DNA from: an uncultured Alphaproteobacteria bacterium
Lineage (GTDB): Bacteria; Pseudomonadota; Alphaproteobacteria; HIMB59
Direction of reading: 5' to 3'
Assembly: GCA_902610415.1 (NCBI GenBank)
Contig: CACLVL010000002.1
Span: forward strand, 1-64,000
Length of the DNA stretch: 64,000 nucleotides
Both the position numbers and the translations under genes were made by a program. Each line of letters opens with the position of its first letter. The first letter of the stretch is position 1. Below are positions 45,374 through 54,129 of the stretch, one piece after another. Below the pieces are notes generated by a model. That model was not told the origin of the DNA. It saw nothing but the letters and a program-made list of their open reading frames with translations, and made no database searches.

Positions 45374-46480
45374 ATGAACCATTTAATCGCTAAAAGTGCT
45401 CGACTTCGCTCCACACCCTATACCAAAAGAATAGAAAAGTATGGAGTTCAATCCTACACAGTTTACAATCATATGATTTTACCAGCATCTTTTAAAGGGA
45501 TAGAGGAAGACTGTCTTCATCTTAAAAACAATGTTCAAGTTTGGGATGTGTCTGTAGAAAGGCAAGTCCAATTTAAAGGCCCTGATGCTGCAAAGCTTAC
45601 ACAGCTTATTACTTGTAGAGATCTATCTAATGCAAAAGATTATCTTTGTTACTATGCTCCAATTATTGATGAAAAAGGAAAAATTCTTAATGATCCTTTA
45701 ATTATGAAGGTTGGTGATGATACTTGGTGGTTATCTATAGCCGATTCAGATATCTTATTATATGCAAAGGGTATTACCATTGGTATGAATTTAGATGTAG
45801 AAATTTCAGAGCCCAATGTCAATATATTAGCTGTACAAGGTCCTAAATCTTTTGATTTGATGGAGAGAGTCTTTGGAGAAGAAATAAAAAAATTAAAATT
45901 TTTTAATTTCAAAAGATATGAATTTCAAGGCCATAAATTGTTAATCGCAAGATCAGGTTGGTCGAAACAGGGTGGATTTGAAATTTATGTTGATGATGAT
46001 GAAGTTGGTCTAAATCTTTATGATAGCTTGATTAATAATGGAGAAGATTTAAATGTAAGACCAGGCTGTCCAAATTTAATTGAAAGGATTGAGGGAGGTC
46101 TGCTTTCTTTTGGAAATGATATGACTATGGAAGATACTCCCCTAGAATGTAGCCTAAATCCTTTTGTATCTTTTAATCCAGATATAAATTATTTAGGAAA
46201 ATCAATACTAGAAAAACAAAATCGAGAAGGAGTACAAAGATCATTAATTGGTTTAAAACTCAAGCTTGATAATTTAACTATAACAAAATACTTACCTATT
46301 CAATTAGATGGTCAGTTTATTGGCGAATTAAGATCTGGTTGTTTTAGCCCTGATTTTGGGTGTTGTCTTGGTATCGCAATGATACAAACCAAGTTTCAAA
46401 ATTTTAATGAAGTTAAGACACTATTGATTGATAATCTAGAAGTGCAATCACAGATGACGTCATTACCTTTTTCAAAATAG
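45374..46480 (+). CDS. dmdA: Dimethylsulfoniopropionate demethylase DmdA
   Basis: A 368-residue GcvT-fold enzyme that moves a methyl group from DMSP to tetrahydrofolate, giving methylmercaptopropionate. The sequence follows Pelagibacter DmdA as I recall it: LRSTPYTKRIEKYGVQSYTVYNHM, VQVWDVSVERQVQFKGPD, WWLSIADSDILLYAKG, VQGPKSFDLMERVFG and SGWSKQGGFEIYVD. Length matches (about 369). Context is a methylated-compound region. A distant paralog at 52.4 kb differs in the same blocks. Confidence is high for the DmdA clade; substrate is from family knowledge. Confidence 0.88.
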   Translation: MNHLIAKSARLRSTPYTKRIEKYGVQSYTVYNHMILPASFKGIEEDCLHLKNNVQVWDVSVERQVQFKGPDAAKLTQLITCRDLSNAKDYLCYYAPIIDEKGKILNDPLIMKVGDDTWWLSIADSDILLYAKGITIGMNLDVEISEPNVNILAVQGPKSFDLMERVFGEEIKKLKFFNFKRYEFQGHKLLIARSGWSKQGGFEIYVDDDEVGLNLYDSLINNGEDLNVRPGCPNLIERIEGGLLSFGNDMTMEDTPLECSLNPFVSFNPDINYLGKSILEKQNREGVQRSLIGLKLKLDNLTITKYLPIQLDGQFIGELRSGCFSPDFGCCLGIAMIQTKFQNFNEVKTLLIDNLEVQSQMTSLPFSK

Positions 46481-46518: not shown

Positions 46519-47784
46519 GTGTTTGGAACTATTTTAAATTCATGGGCACTTTTTAGTGGCTTTGGGCTAATAATGATTGCTCATACACTTCAAGGAACTT
46601 TACTAAACATCAATTCTGTTTTTTTTAATTTTACAGACTTTGAGATTGGCTATGTATTTACAGGATATTTCATAGGATTTCTGTTTAGCTCAATTCAATG
46701 TCCTAAACTTATTAAAAATGTTGGGCATATAAGAGTATTTGCAGCATTTGCATCTTTAGGATCAATAGCTATCTTATTGCATTGGATTTTTGTTGATCCA
46801 GTTCTTTGGTTAATCTTTAGAGTAATTACTGGTTTCTCATATGCTGCCATTTATATAGTTTGTGAGAGCTGGTTGAATGATCGAGCAGATAACCAAACAA
46901 GAGGCCAGTTGATTGGTTTCTATATGATTGTTTTATATATTTCTACAAGTATCGGGGTAATGTTAATAAATATAGGGACAACTACAGAAGCGCATCTTTA
47001 TATTCTATCATCTTTGTTGATATCCCTTGCATTGGTTCCTATATTGCTTACTAAGAAACCTGCTCCTGAATTCACAACACCTAAATTTTTAAGTCTTAAA
47101 GACTTATATAATAAATCACCTATGGCTTTTGTCGGCTCTTTTTCAATTGGAATGATTTATAGTGCTTTATTCGGTTTAATTGCAGTTTTTGGTGCTAAAA
47201 TTGGTTTTAGTATATTTCAAATTTCAATTTTAGTTTTTGTAAACATGTTTATTGGAGCTGTTTTTCAGTATCCTATTGGAAAAATCTCAGATCGTTATGA
47301 TCGAAGAACTATTTTATTTGTACTAAATTTGATAGCTATTGGCTCTTTATTACTGGCCTTGATATTTGGTTCATTCTCATTTTATGTTCTATTATTGTTT
47401 ATTGGTTTTCATTCTGCTGTTTCATTACCTTATTACGCTGTCGTTATTTCACATATGAACGATTTTTTGGAAAAAGACGAGATTGTTTCAGCAAGTTCAA
47501 CATTAACACTTGTTAATGCTTTAGGTATGGTAGCAGGTCCTATGTTAGCCTCAGGTTTTATGGCTTATTTTGGACCCTATGGTTTTTTTATTTATATGAT
47601 AGTAGTGTATTCTTTAGTGGCTCCTTATAATTATTTTAGAATTAGAGTGGGAAGAACTAGTGATATCTATTATGAAAATACACCTTCAATGATTGTTCCT
47701 AGAAATACATCTTCAATTGGGATGCAATTAGCAACAGAACAGATTATAAATAAAATTGAAGAGGGAGAGGAAATCTCACAGTGA
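46519..47784 (+). CDS. MFS transporter (YcaD-like)
   Basis: A 421-residue MFS protein with twelve helices. The motif YPIGKISDRYDRRTILFVL (cytoplasmic A-like loop, helices 8-9) and the family-like CESWLNDRADNQTRGQLIGFY (~114-134) match the YcaD branch. The start appears to be GTG at 46519; length from there is typical. Sits between dmdA and a RidA gene whose GTG start overlaps its stop. It could carry an osmolyte or phosphonate, but substrate is unknown. Confidence 0.88.
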   Translation: MFGTILNSWALFSGFGLIMIAHTLQGTLLNINSVFFNFTDFEIGYVFTGYFIGFLFSSIQCPKLIKNVGHIRVFAAFASLGSIAILLHWIFVDPVLWLIFRVITGFSYAAIYIVCESWLNDRADNQTRGQLIGFYMIVLYISTSIGVMLINIGTTTEAHLYILSSLLISLALVPILLTKKPAPEFTTPKFLSLKDLYNKSPMAFVGSFSIGMIYSALFGLIAVFGAKIGFSIFQISILVFVNMFIGAVFQYPIGKISDRYDRRTILFVLNLIAIGSLLLALIFGSFSFYVLLLFIGFHSAVSLPYYAVVISHMNDFLEKDEIVSASSTLTLVNALGMVAGPMLASGFMAYFGPYGFFIYMIVVYSLVAPYNYFRIRVGRTSDIYYENTPSMIVPRNTSSIGMQLATEQIINKIEEGEEISQ

Positions 47785-48242
47785 TTATAGAGGATAAATT
47801 ACAAGAGTTAGGAATTGTTTTACCCAATCCCGCAAAACCAGCTGGAAGTTACAAACCTTGTGTAATAGTTGATAATACTGCATATATTTCAGGCCAAGGT
47901 CCTCTCCTTGAGGATGGAAGTTTTGCAAAAGGTGTTGTTGGTAAAGATTTGAGTTTGGAACTAGCTCAAGAACATGCACAAAAGTGTGGTTTGGCAATAT
48001 TATCTGCCTTAAAAAATGAAATCAAAGATCTAGATAGAGTAGAACAATTAATAAAGTTGACAGGTTTTGTGAACTGTTTAGATAATTTTACTCAACAACC
48101 TCAGGTTATTAATGGTTGTTCAGATTTAATGCAAAAGATCTTTGGCGAAAAGGGTATTCATGCTCGTGCAGCAGTTGGAGTGAATTCTCTTCCTTTAGGC
48201 TTCTCAGTTGAAATTGAAGCTATATTTAAAGTAACTCCTTAA
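47781..48242 (+). CDS. RidA-family (YjgF/UK114) protein
   Basis: A 153-residue member of the RidA superfamily, which hydrolyses reactive enamine/imine intermediates. Conserved: YISGQGPL near 38-45, GLAILSALKNEIKDLDRV, and C-terminal ARAAVGVNSLPLGFSVEIEAIF with the R-AAVG... EIEA pattern including the catalytic Arg. Longer than classical RidA (~128), as in the annotated 'RidA-like' subgroup with PxxAxPxG-type N-terminus. GTG start overlaps the MFS stop. Fits a pathway giving imine intermediates. Confidence 0.88.
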   Translation: MIIEDKLQELGIVLPNPAKPAGSYKPCVIVDNTAYISGQGPLLEDGSFAKGVVGKDLSLELAQEHAQKCGLAILSALKNEIKDLDRVEQLIKLTGFVNCLDNFTQQPQVINGCSDLMQKIFGEKGIHARAAVGVNSLPLGFSVEIEAIFKVTP

Positions 48243-48310: not shown

Positions 48311-49441
48311 ATGAAGGTTCAGTTTTCAAGTGACTCATTAAAAGTGACACACCAAAATCATGATTATGAATTACATCCTATTTGGCTAAGAGAAAGATTA
48401 CCAGGTCGTGAGTATGTCGACAAAGATACAAATCAAAGGCTCTACGAACCCTCTTCTATCAAATTAGATTTGCAAATTAAAACAGCAAAAATTTTAGAGG
48501 AAAAACTTGATATTGAATTCAATGATGGGGCTAAAGGGAAGTATAATATTAAAGATCTTCTAACAGAATTTGATAACGATAAAAACAAACGTGGCCCTTT
48601 ACCTAAAAGACTACTTTGGAACTCAGATTTAAAAGTATTTCCAAGTGTAGAATTTGAAGAAAATATGGTTGAGAGAGAGTCAATGTATAGACTTTTAGAG
48701 GAATTTTATAAATATGGTTTTGTAATTATTAAAAACGTACCAACAAAAAATCAGTATTTACTCAAATTTGTGAGATCTATAGGTCCTATTAAAGTGACTA
48801 ACTTTGGAGAGTATTTTGATGTAATGTCAAAACCTAACCCTAATGATTTAGCTTATAAGCCTATTGCTCTTCCTCCACATACGGACAATCCCTATAGAAA
48901 GCCAGCTGCGCCTGGCATTCAATTTTTACATTGTATTAAAAATGAGGTCAGTGGTGGTTTTTCGACTCTAGTAGATGGTTTTGCAGTTGCTGATTATATT
49001 AAGATCAATTACCCTGAAGCTTTCGAGTCTTTGACTAAAACTAATCTTAGATATCAATTTCAAGATAAAGATATTATTTTAGAAAACTGGGGAGAGCTTA
49101 TTGAGTTGGATAAAGAGGGAGACTATAAACAAGTAAGGTATAGTACAAGAGTTGATTATGTTCCGCCAATTAATCGAAAAAAACTTACAAATTTCTATAA
49201 AGCAAGAAAACTACTAAGTGATTTATATTCTTCATCAGATTTTGAGATTAAGTTTAAACTTAAAACCGGTGACATTATGATGTTTGATAATCATAGACTG
49301 CTTCATGGAAGAACTTCATACAATGCTAATGAAGGTGCTAGACACCTCCAGGGTTGTTATCTAGATTTTGACTCAACAGATGGCAAATTTAGACATTTGC
49401 ATAGAAAACACATTCAAAATGGATCTAAAAATTTTGGTTGA
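48311..49441 (+). CDS. tmpA: 2-oxoglutarate/Fe(II) oxygenase, TmpA- or gamma-butyrobetaine-hydroxylase-like
   Basis: A 376-residue non-haem iron oxygenase. The N-terminal DUF971-like domain (LHPIWLRERLPG) is followed by a TauD-type barrel with the iron triad H190-x-D192 (PHTDNPYRK) and H332 (LLHGRTSY), and a 2-oxoglutarate Arg in ARHLQGCYLD. Such genes are usually called gamma-butyrobetaine hydroxylase. However, the next gene overlaps it and encodes an HD-type diiron oxygenase with all PhnZ ligands. This pair is the signature of TmpA/TmpB, which turn 2-trimethylaminoethylphosphonate into glycine betaine and phosphate. Assignment to TmpA rests on that context. Confidence 0.7.
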   Translation: MKVQFSSDSLKVTHQNHDYELHPIWLRERLPGREYVDKDTNQRLYEPSSIKLDLQIKTAKILEEKLDIEFNDGAKGKYNIKDLLTEFDNDKNKRGPLPKRLLWNSDLKVFPSVEFEENMVERESMYRLLEEFYKYGFVIIKNVPTKNQYLLKFVRSIGPIKVTNFGEYFDVMSKPNPNDLAYKPIALPPHTDNPYRKPAAPGIQFLHCIKNEVSGGFSTLVDGFAVADYIKINYPEAFESLTKTNLRYQFQDKDIILENWGELIELDKEGDYKQVRYSTRVDYVPPINRKKLTNFYKARKLLSDLYSSSDFEIKFKLKTGDIMMFDNHRLLHGRTSYNANEGARHLQGCYLDFDSTDGKFRHLHRKHIQNGSKNFG

Positions 49442-50039
49442 TAAGTATGTAAAATTTAAACATATGAAAGAAGGTGATAAAAATGATTATTTATTACTTC
49501 AAGAGTATGAAGAAAAATATGTCTCTTTAACTTATGAGAGAATTATCGAAGAACTATCAAGACAAGGAAAAAATACTATGGAGGGCTATAAAATTTCCAG
49601 ACTGGATCATGGACTTCAATCAGCAACAAGAGCTTATAACGATGGGGCTGATATTGATTGGATTGTTGGAACATTACTTCACGATATTGGCGATGGACTT
49701 GCTCCTCAAAATCACGATAGATTTTCTGCTGAGGTCATAAGACCTTATGTTAGAGAAGAAGTAACTTGGGTGGTTGAGCATCATGGAATTTTTCAAATGA
49801 TTTACTACGCCCATCATTATGGTTGGGATAAAAATGCTAGGGATAAATTTAAAGATAATATTTATTTTCAAACATGCGCGGACTTCTGCGAAAGATGGGA
49901 TCAAAAATCTTTTGATCCAGAATATGAGAACAAAGATCTAGATTTTTTTAAACCCATGATAAAAGAGATTTTTAATAGACCTCCATACAAAGAGGAATTC
50001 ATTAAAAAAAGAGAAGTTTTGGGATTACCAAAAATTTAA
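49419..50039 (+). CDS. tmpB: HD-domain mixed-valent diiron oxygenase, TmpB/PhnZ-like
   Basis: A 206-residue HD-fold protein. All six metal ligands of PhnZ-type oxygenases are found in order: H64 (RLDHGLQSA), H88-D89 (LLHDIGD), H99 (NHDRFSAE), H122 (EHHGIFQ) and D161 (ERWDQKSFD). PhnZ has H34, H58, D59, H80, H104, D161 with the same motif neighbours. TmpB cleaves the hydroxylated trimethylaminoethylphosphonate to glycine betaine and phosphate. It starts at ATG 49419 inside the oxygenase gene (23-base overlap). An ATG at 49464 would also keep every ligand. An ordinary phosphohydrolase is the alternative. Confidence 0.75.
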   Translation: MDLKILVDKYVKFKHMKEGDKNDYLLLQEYEEKYVSLTYERIIEELSRQGKNTMEGYKISRLDHGLQSATRAYNDGADIDWIVGTLLHDIGDGLAPQNHDRFSAEVIRPYVREEVTWVVEHHGIFQMIYYAHHYGWDKNARDKFKDNIYFQTCADFCERWDQKSFDPEYENKDLDFFKPMIKEIFNRPPYKEEFIKKREVLGLPKI

Positions 50040-50080: not shown

Positions 50081-50605
50081 ATGAGAATTCTCTTGATAAC
50101 CTTAAGTGTATTACTCACAAATATAGGAAGTGTTATGGCGCAAAACTTACATAATTTTAGTATTCAAGATATTGATGGTAATCAAATTAGTTTGGATAAA
50201 TTTAAAGGAAAACCTGTTCTTCTTGTGAATACTGCTAGCAGATGTGGTTTTACTAAGCAGTATGCTAACTTGTCCAATCTTCATCGTGAATATTTAGATA
50301 AAAATTTAGTAATTATTGGAACTCCCTCTAACAGCTTTCGACAAGAGTTAGATGATGAAAAGGATGTTAAAGAGTTTTGTTTAGTTAACTATGATACAAA
50401 ATTTATCATTTCTGAAATCATTGATGTGAACGGTGAGGACGCCCATCCATTATACAGCTGGATGATGTCAACATATAATGAAACTCCAAAATGGAATTTT
50501 TATAAATATCTTTTTGATGGTGAGGGAAATTTAGTTAAAAGTTGGTCTTCAATGACTAAGCCTGATAGTTCGAAAATTACAGATTTAATAGATGACTTAA
50601 TATAA
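50081..50605 (+). CDS. Exported glutathione peroxidase family protein
   Basis: A 174-residue thioredoxin-fold peroxidase with a signal peptide (MRILLITLSVLLTNIGSVMA). Peroxidatic Cys in VNTASRCGFTKQYANL; the second block is TPSNSFRQELDD instead of the common NQFGxQEP, so the catalytic Gln is replaced in part by Ser-Phe-Arg-Gln. WNFYKYLFDGEGNLVKSW fits the third motif. It is likely a periplasmic, possibly thioredoxin-linked peroxide scavenger. The gene ends just before a bidirectional terminator. Confidence 0.88.
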   Translation: MRILLITLSVLLTNIGSVMAQNLHNFSIQDIDGNQISLDKFKGKPVLLVNTASRCGFTKQYANLSNLHREYLDKNLVIIGTPSNSFRQELDDEKDVKEFCLVNYDTKFIISEIIDVNGEDAHPLYSWMMSTYNETPKWNFYKYLFDGEGNLVKSWSSMTKPDSSKITDLIDDLI

Positions 50606-52423: not shown

Positions 52424-53578
52424 TCAAGAACTTGGAAGCGCTTTTTTAGGATCAAAGAAAGGCTTTTCTACTATTATTGCATCTCTGAGAACCCCATAAA
52501 TTTCAACTAATAATTTCATTCCTATTTCAGTGTAATTTTTATCAACCATAGCCAATGCTATATTTTTTTCTAATCGTGGTGAAAATACTGCGGAAGTTAC
52601 TTTTCCAATGCTTTTATCATCACAGAATATTTCCCAAAATATTGTGTTTGGTCCTGTCAAAGAATCTCCCTCTATTTCCAAGCCAATTTGCTTACGTTTT
52701 ATACCTTTTTTTTGAATTTCAATAAGTGCTTTTTTACCAATGAAATTAATGTCACTATCCAAAGATACTAATCTTTCAAGTCCCATTTCAAATGGGTTAG
52801 TATGTATATCTGCATCTGCGTGATATGACAACATACCTCCTTCGATACGGCGAATGCTTGATGTGTGACCAGGCTGAAGACCATATTCATTCCCTGCTAT
52901 CATGATCATTTCCCATAATTTATCTCCCTGAGATCCGTCTCGTAAAAATAATTCATATCCAAGTTCTGTAGACCATCCAGTACGAGATACAACTAAGGGA
53001 ATACCATCTAATTCTAGTTCTTTGAGCCAGTAATATTTTAAATCTCTTATGCTTTCTCCAAATAATTTCACCATAATCTCTCTTGACTTTGGTCCCTGTA
53101 GCTGAAGAGGTGAAACATCTGGTTCATTGATGCTAACATTTAGCCCTGAATTTACTGCAACACCTTGAGCCCAAAGTAAAATATCGCTATCAGATAGAGA
53201 TAACCAAAAATGATTTTCATCTAAACAAAGTAAGACAGGGTCATTGAGTATACCCCCTTTTTCGTTGGTAATTAGAACATATTTACACTGCCCTATAGAT
53301 AATTTGCTAAGATCACGAGGTGTAAGTAATTGAATAAACTGAAATGCATCAGGACCAGTTATCTCAACTTGTCTTTCAACTGCTACATCACATAAAATTG
53401 CATCATTAACTAAATTCCAAAAATTTTTCTCAGGGTCGCCAAAATCCCTTGGGATATACATGTGATTATAAACTGAAAAGCCAGTGGCCCCCCATCGAAC
53501 TGTAGCATCAAAAAATGGAGATTTTCTAATTTGAGTGCCAAATCCAAAATGTTTATTTGTATTTTTACTTTGCATCAT
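52424..53578 (-). CDS. DmdA/GcvT-like folate-dependent methyltransferase
   Basis: A 384-residue GcvT-fold protein related to DmdA but distinct. Seen: RKSPFFDATVRWGATGFSVYNHMYIPRDF, CDVAVERQVEITGPDAFQFIQLLTPRDL, FWLSLSDSDILLWAQG, LQGPKSREIM, SRTGWSTELGYELFL and IRRIEGGMLSYHADADIHTNPFEMGLERLV. GWSTELGYE replaces GWSKQGGFE of DmdA. It probably demethylates another methylated substrate to folate (dimethylglycine or similar), since it ends the betA operon. I chose ATG 53578 with GGAAGGAG 5 bases upstream; it overlaps the SOUL stop by 4 bases. Confidence 0.8.
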   Translation of the reverse strand: MMQSKNTNKHFGFGTQIRKSPFFDATVRWGATGFSVYNHMYIPRDFGDPEKNFWNLVNDAILCDVAVERQVEITGPDAFQFIQLLTPRDLSKLSIGQCKYVLITNEKGGILNDPVLLCLDENHFWLSLSDSDILLWAQGVAVNSGLNVSINEPDVSPLQLQGPKSREIMVKLFGESIRDLKYYWLKELELDGIPLVVSRTGWSTELGYELFLRDGSQGDKLWEMIMIAGNEYGLQPGHTSSIRRIEGGMLSYHADADIHTNPFEMGLERLVSLDSDINFIGKKALIEIQKKGIKRKQIGLEIEGDSLTGPNTIFWEIFCDDKSIGKVTSAVFSPRLEKNIALAMVDKNYTEIGMKLLVEIYGVLRDAIIVEKPFFDPKKALPSS

Positions 53579-54129
53579 AGTGGCTCCTTCCATTCGACTA
53601 AAAAAATTGCTTCATTTCTTCGAAGATTAGGAAGTGTAAAAGGACCATCATATGTAGCTTTAACAGCGGAACCTAGGACTTTTACATCATCGGCATTTAA
53701 TTTGTTTTTTAAAATTTCTCTATGTTTGTAAAAATTTTTATCAGAGGCAAAACCTGAGTATCTAATTACTGCAAAATACCCTGGTTCTATTGTCGAAATT
53801 TTTACTGATTTGTCTGAGGGTAAAGGTATCTCATTTTGTTGAAATCTATTGGGTAAGTAAAATTGCATAACAAACTTATTTTCAATTTCTGTAACATTAA
53901 CTGGTGTAGTCATTTCAATTTTTTGACTTTGTTTATTATTGCCTGATATATATTCAAAGAGTTTCTGAAATCCATTATTTTGATTAGAGTATTGTGTTTC
54001 TACTATTAAACGTTCCTCATAATATCGAATTTCATAAGTATCCGTTTGATAAACAACTCTATAGGGAGACTCACTGTAGGCCATCAAGTTTTGTACCATG
54101 AGTAACAACAATAGTAAGTATTTAATCAT
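53575..54129 (-). CDS. SOUL-family haem-binding-like protein, exported
   Basis: A 184-residue protein with a signal peptide (MIKYLLLLLLMVQNLMA) and the SOUL/HBP fold: PYRVVYQTDTYEIRYYEERLIVE, KIEMTTPVNVTEIENKFVMQFYLP and GYFAVIRYSGFASDKNFYKHRE. Family members bind haem or porphyrins; a role in folate/haem methyl chemistry is not established. I chose ATG 54129 (ATGATTAA overlap with the SH3 gene); the longer TTG form adds 10 residues before the signal peptide. Overlaps the DmdA-like gene. Confidence 0.85.
   Translation of the reverse strand: MIKYLLLLLLMVQNLMAYSESPYRVVYQTDTYEIRYYEERLIVETQYSNQNNGFQKLFEYISGNNKQSQKIEMTTPVNVTEIENKFVMQFYLPNRFQQNEIPLPSDKSVKISTIEPGYFAVIRYSGFASDKNFYKHREILKNKLNADDVKVLGSAVKATYDGPFTLPNLRRNEAIFLVEWKEPL

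Follow-up and report, generated by a model that had tools for sequence, protein, structure and literature searches.

The window, that is, the whole stretch of 64,000 nucleotides that was analyzed, comes from a streamlined alphaproteobacterium and carries a conserved run of six genes on the + strand, in which a predicted Fe(II)/2-oxoglutarate oxygenase gene overlaps the gene of an HD-domain protein. The run consists of the following features.

45374..46480, + strand: DmdA-type methyltransferase of the GcvT fold, opening the conserved run (NCBIfam DMSP demethylase, 500 bits, cut-off 410; gene order)
46519..47784, + strand: MFS protein, candidate transporter (Pfam MFS_1; gene order)
47781..48242, + strand: Rid/YjgF-family protein (Pfam PF14588, 61 bits; gene order)
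48311..49441, + strand: "D-type" TmpA/BBOX-like Fe(II)/2-oxoglutarate oxygenase, 376 aa (PDB matches TmpA, E = 4e-47, and BBOX, E = 1e-43)
49419..50039, + strand: PhnZ-fold HD-domain protein, a probable mixed-valent diiron oxygenase; overlaps the oxygenase gene
50081..50605, + strand: glutathione-peroxidase-family protein (Pfam GSHPx, 109 bits)

The run is followed on the opposite strand by genes for AmtB, GlnK, a second DmdA-like protein, and choline dehydrogenase (BetA; 769 bits, cut-off 732). The two overlapping reading frames and the DmdA, Rid, MFS, and betaine-gene neighbors were thus all found where a preliminary description of this DNA had placed them. The second DmdA-like protein (52424-53593), adjoining GlnK/AmtB, scored 380 bits, under the DMSP-demethylase cut-off of 410. 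The HD gene has an uncertain start; ATG 49419 or TTG 49434 is more likely than TTG 49368, since in relatives (L002 and others) a stop codon lies shortly downstream of the latter, ruling it out as a family-wide start. HD residues are numbered here from ATG 49419. Computation on the locus and its relatives covered the conservation of the genes, their co-occurrence and context, the folds, metal ligands, and pocket changes of the proteins, the separation of the clades, and an exchange of the HD partner.

Comparison of gene order showed that the six-gene run is kept within the window's genus. The oxygenase-HD pair is present in 31 genomes of that genus and is therefore not a chance arrangement. The Rid gene is co-conserved upstream both in these genomes and in those with an enolase-superfamily gene in place of HD, and outside the genus it is not adjacent to the pair. 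MFS homologues with 39 to 41% identity were found close to the HD gene or to the pair in SAR11.

In the oxygenase, the iron ligands H190-x-D192 and H332 named in the preliminary description were confirmed by alignment, in register with those of TmpA and BBOX. The nearest solved relative is TmpA, with BBOX a close second, and a fold search with the predicted model (pLDDT 85.6) ranked the same two proteins first. The pair had been read as TmpA/TmpB, converting 2-trimethylaminoethylphosphonate to glycine betaine and phosphate, and several features speak for this: TmpA is the top NCBIfam model for the oxygenase, the HTDNPYR motif is common to both, and the aromatic cage is kept (F165, F169, Y182, and Y350). 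The score against the curated TmpA equivalog model (NF049936), at 339 bits, nevertheless lay below the cut-off of 400. Scores were likewise below the cut-offs of the models for gamma-butyrobetaine dioxygenase (TIGR02409; 260 bits, cut-off 414.75) and trimethyllysine dioxygenase (TIGR02410; 191 bits, cut-off 268.3). An authentic pair from a Labrenzia plasmid scored 577 bits for TmpA and 352 bits for TmpB in the same test, so the models do recognize genuine pairs. In a maximum-likelihood tree, the window oxygenase grouped with D-type proteins in a clade of 20 members (support 100/99), which lies beside TmpA but outside it, the sister relation being weak (81/49). The phylogenetic check against characterized TmpA that had been suggested earlier thus excluded the window oxygenase from that family, and a tree constrained to place it with TmpA was rejected (p-AU 5.7e-7).

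The head-group pocket of the oxygenase is formed by Asp179 and R280. In TmpA, the phosphonate is held by N187, N287, and R288 (PMC9296572), the equivalents of which are Asp179, Thr279, and Arg280 in the window protein, so that Arg alone is retained; across the D-type proteins, these positions hold Asp179, a variable residue, and Arg or Lys. Asp179 was invariant among the D-type proteins examined. By alignment it lies 11 residues before the first iron-binding His, in exact register with Asp231 of trimethyllysine hydroxylase (TMLH), which is thought to bind the alpha-ammonium group of the substrate and corresponds in position to BBOX Asn191 (PMC7764450). At this position the window oxygenase therefore carries the Asp of TMLH and not the Asn of BBOX. 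The replacement of Asn by Asp at residue 179 could instead serve to bind a hydroxyl or protonated group, and the conserved R280 could still hold an anion.

For the HD protein, the full set of PhnZ-type metal ligands (H64, H88, D89, H99, H122, and D161) was present, as described before, and proved invariant across the family. The spacing had also been said to match; this held for H64-H88, but the later loops are much shorter than in TmpB and PhnZ. A Foldseek search with the AlphaFold model (pLDDT 93.7) placed PhnZ (E = 1.7e-6) and TmpB (E = 7e-6) on top, with TM scores of about 0.6 to 0.7, while the best hydrolase-type match had an E value of 3e-2 and MIOX gave a TM score of 0.47 (E = 1.1). With its H...HD...H...H...D ligands and a fold nearest to PhnZ/TmpB, the protein fits the wider PhnZ-fold HD diiron class. 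The model supports an oxygenase of the PhnZ-fold type, with a putative diiron center, rather than a hydrolase.

Within this class, the HD protein was clearly distinct from TmpB. It scored 23 bits against the TmpB equivalog model (NF049941; cut-off 300), missing it by more than 10-fold, and its family was set apart from TmpB and PhnZ-like proteins with support of 100/100. The YxxE loop, which caps the iron and contacts the amine in PhnZ and TmpB (PMC8177086), was absent; M54-E-G-Y57 stands in its place, and hydrophobic-x-G-Y was seen in nearly all members of the family. The family further carries Asp92, Gln126, and Glu158, at positions held by His, Lys, and Arg in every TmpB/PhnZ-like protein of the comparison. 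The measurement at these positions is of a residue difference between families; PhnZ K108, R158, and H62 are presumably the residues that bind the phosphonate. In two independent proteins, then, acidic or neutral residues have taken the place of basic or amide ones, which fits a non-phosphonate head group. Tmp-specific substrate residues were absent from both proteins; such a lack in the HD protein was part of what the preliminary description had itself named as speaking against its proposal.

The distribution of the two genes was examined in an even sample of 385 genomes of the class. The HD family was found in 11 of the 12 genomes with a D-type signature, compared with 109 of 385 overall (P = 6e-6), and outside the window's genus in all eight D-type genomes, from five families (P = 3e-5), with kinship inflating both results. 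With 109 of 385 genomes against 12, the HD family is far more widespread than the oxygenase; it therefore has further partners and may act on something other than the oxygenase's product. Many Pelagibacteraceae genomes encode D-type oxygenases with 50 to 57% identity, usually as solitary genes, and in a few SAR11 genomes the oxygenase and HD genes are adjacent. That the unpaired SAR11 oxygenases lack an HD partner proved wrong, as 18 of the 19 genomes searched encode the HD family elsewhere. In SAR11, an unlinked HD gene lies directly behind purF with an MFS homologue nearby (L213-L217 and L228), and several of these genomes have apparent glutathione-synthesis genes (gshA/gshB) beside it.

The frequent occurrence of the HD family apart from the oxygenase, and the fact that the two are unlinked in SAR11 and in a sister family (f2), would suit a phosphohydrolase or other hydrolase that merely adjoins a carnitine-type hydroxylase and shares no intermediate with it. 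Since the nearest folds are oxygenases, with no hydrolase at E < 0.03, and since the H...HD...H...H...D set is complete and the protein strongly co-occurs, and is exchanged, with the oxygenase's operon, this explanation is considered distinctly unlikely.

The exchange of the HD partner was seen on comparison of 52 genomes of the genus. The slot between the oxygenase and peroxidase genes was occupied by HD in 31 genomes and by an enolase-superfamily gene in 12, never by both; the 9 genomes with neither also had no full-length D-type oxygenase. Between an HD-type locus (L046) and an enolase-type locus (L196), DNA identity was 93% upstream and 98% downstream of the exchanged block, within which the HD-peroxidase segment is replaced by an enolase-peroxidase segment and one more gene. 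The breakpoint lies about 50 bases ahead of the oxygenase stop codon. Oxygenase identity across the swap was 94 to 97%, the same as among HD genomes. The glutathione-peroxidase-family gene was exchanged together with HD, with 77% identity across the swap, compared with 94 to 100% in unexchanged flanking genes. The incoming gene, of 382 aa, had clean cassette edges and near-identical flanks in L192-L201 and L092 (genus genomes G111, G112, G115, G116, G120, G122, G128, G136, G155, and G160). Behind the peroxidase gene, several enolase-type genomes carry a 233-aa pirin/cupin-like reading frame (L196:8910-9611). In one genus genome (G117:C2:34173-36143), the D-type oxygenase and enolase genes are full of in-frame stops, probably from a noisy assembly.

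The enolase-superfamily protein has 4jhm as its nearest solved relative (E = 4e-76) and, by alignment, retains the Lys and the Asp, Glu, Asn metal-ligand pattern. Enzymes of this superfamily abstract the proton neighboring a carboxylate group. The exchange is most readily explained if the HD and enolase partners use one common hydroxylated product or fill a common need. Because the superfamily acts on carboxylates, the oxygenase product would most simply bear a carboxylate as well, which argues against a phosphonate.

Gene neighborhoods in relatives contained choline, carnitine, and betaine genes. A Pseudomonas aeruginosa plasmid carries the pair with further genes behind it, encoding a choline-binding protein (458 bits against a cut-off of 379), choline dehydrogenase, and aldehyde dehydrogenase. 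In SAR11, it lies near genes resembling those for betaine-homocysteine methyltransferase, dimethylglycine dehydrogenase, and betaine-aldehyde dehydrogenase, and in f2 the HD gene adjoins genes for a BKACE enzyme, a homologue of L-carnitine dehydrogenase, and a thioesterase that resembles the C-terminal domain of carnitine dehydrogenase. The carnitine-pathway BKACE was present in 34 of the 52 genus genomes, with 25/31 of the HD type and 3/12 of the enolase type, a difference confounded by kinship. It was rejected as an obligate companion, given this count and its absence from the window's genome, which is 66% complete. One SAR11 locus (L101) holds an authentic PhnZ-like HD gene (L101:7495-8040; Phn-HD, 172 bits) and a BBOX-like gene (L101:2-1075) near a D-type pair; the two HD types therefore coexist and probably have different jobs. 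On plasmids (L235 and L236), BBOX-like oxygenase genes are followed by a class II aldolase gene and no HD gene, representing another partner type for the oxygenase family.

No phosphonate operon was found in the neighborhoods examined. The search for a phosphonate importer that had been suggested earlier fared no better: a phosphonate-type binding protein occurred in 3 of the 52 genus genomes, was absent from that of the window, and did not track the pair. Although the PhnZ fold of the HD protein and the Arg at the TmpA R288 position would also suit a true TmpA/TmpB pair, model scores (both proteins under the equivalog cut-offs that authentic pairs pass), tree test, pocket residues (N187 as Asp, N287 not Asn; YxxE and the His, Lys, and Arg gone), the rare transporter, and the exchange of HD for an enolase-family gene all stand against it. 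This reading was judged very improbable, and the release of phosphate from 2-trimethylaminoethylphosphonate by this pair is unsupported.

The data are better explained by a two-step oxidative catabolic module of TmpA/TmpB-like type that acts on a different substrate, and this is regarded as moderately probable. The D-type oxygenase would hydroxylate a compound whose quaternary (or sulfonium) end sits in the cage of F165, F169, Y182, and Y350 and whose cationic or amino-acid-like head group is held by Asp179 and R280. The HD protein, with its putative diiron site, would then use O2 to cleave the C-C bond beside the new hydroxyl, and the shortened betaine acid would pass into the catabolism of carnitine or glycine betaine. 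Trimethyllysine, offered as a guess of fairly low probability, is the leading candidate substrate in view of Asp179, the Rid protein, and the carnitine-related neighbors. It would be converted to 3-hydroxytrimethyllysine and cut between C2 and C3 to give gamma-butyrobetaine and iminoacetate, the imine of glyoxylate, which the Rid protein might hydrolyze. Against this choice, the oxygenase sequence is nearer to the TmpA and BBOX models than to that of trimethyllysine dioxygenase (339, 260, and 191 bits).

The main rival to trimethyllysine is a carboxybetaine or DMSP. In that case, a betaine carboxylate such as beta-alanine betaine, gamma-butyrobetaine, or DMSP would be hydroxylated beside the carboxylate and would then lose CO2 oxidatively through the HD enzyme, as a carboxylate analogue of the TmpA/TmpB reaction. 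The surrounding glycine betaine or DMSP genes agree with this, the enolase-superfamily partner suits an alpha- or beta-hydroxy carboxylate, and R280 could hold the carboxylate group. BBOX uses Asn191 for its carboxylate, however, and an Asp would be odd beside an anion, as would the acidic HD pocket; such a substrate is therefore thought unlikely.

Returning to the two-step module, it may represent an undescribed oxidative pathway, widespread among SAR11 and HIMB59-type bacteria, in which a PhnZ-fold diiron HD enzyme would act on a hydroxylated betaine or quaternary-ammonium amino acid and break a C-C rather than a C-P bond, in a step repeatedly exchanged for an unrelated enolase-superfamily enzyme at the same operon position. 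We hold this broader proposal to be a real possibility, somewhat short of probable. No published account of an HD/butyrobetaine pairing in marine bacteria was found in the open-licence literature. If the proposal is true, the genes that in many SAR11 genomes are commonly annotated as gamma-butyrobetaine hydroxylase and HD phosphohydrolase would constitute an unrecognized route into glycine betaine metabolism, ocean counts of TmpB/PhnZ should exclude this HD family, and the small set of known HD oxygenases would gain a further kind of substrate. The recent swap of HD and enolase between near-identical genomes would restrict the common intermediate to a compound acceptable to both enzymes, most simply a hydroxylated carboxylate, making the substrate directly searchable.

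Among known systems, TmpA/TmpB of Leisingera caerulea (PDB 6npb and 6npa) shares with the window pair the gene order, with a double-stranded beta-helix oxygenase followed by a PhnZ-fold HD protein, as well as the aromatic cage, the HTDNPYR motif, and all metal ligands. Identity to authentic TmpA/TmpB is about 28% for the oxygenase and 25% for the HD protein. The window pair differs in that both anion pockets are rebuilt, the clades are separate, YxxE is missing, and the context is non-phosphonate. PhnY*/PhnZ, acting on 2-aminoethylphosphonate (PDB 4mlm), has the same HD fold and ligands, and PhnZ catalyzes the second step there, following a 2-oxoglutarate hydroxylase, a role like that proposed here for the HD protein. 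The residues lost relative to TmpB are lost relative to PhnZ also, and the window oxygenase is of the BBOX/TmpA type. BBOX (PDB 4bg1) and TMLH are alike in fold, iron ligands, and cage, with Asp179 equivalent to TMLH Asp231, but BBOX has Asn191, the TMLH Asn334 region (YST-R) differs, and the window oxygenase is nearer overall to TmpA. MIOX (myo-inositol oxygenase, PDB 2huo) has the same HD diiron ligand set, and its Pfam model was weakly matched by 9 of 13 HD family members; its fold is a distant match (see above), and the window locus has no inositol context. The enolase-superfamily protein 4jhm, nearest to the protein that replaces HD, is unrelated to HD in fold and chemistry. The architecture of the preliminary description, with a PhnZ-fold HD protein behind a TmpA/BBOX-type hydroxylase in a betaine-gene setting, thus stands, whereas the TmpA/TmpB family identity and substrate are wrong or at least unsupported. 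The pair is best seen as a variant of the known TmpA/TmpB-like architecture with an unusual partner swap.
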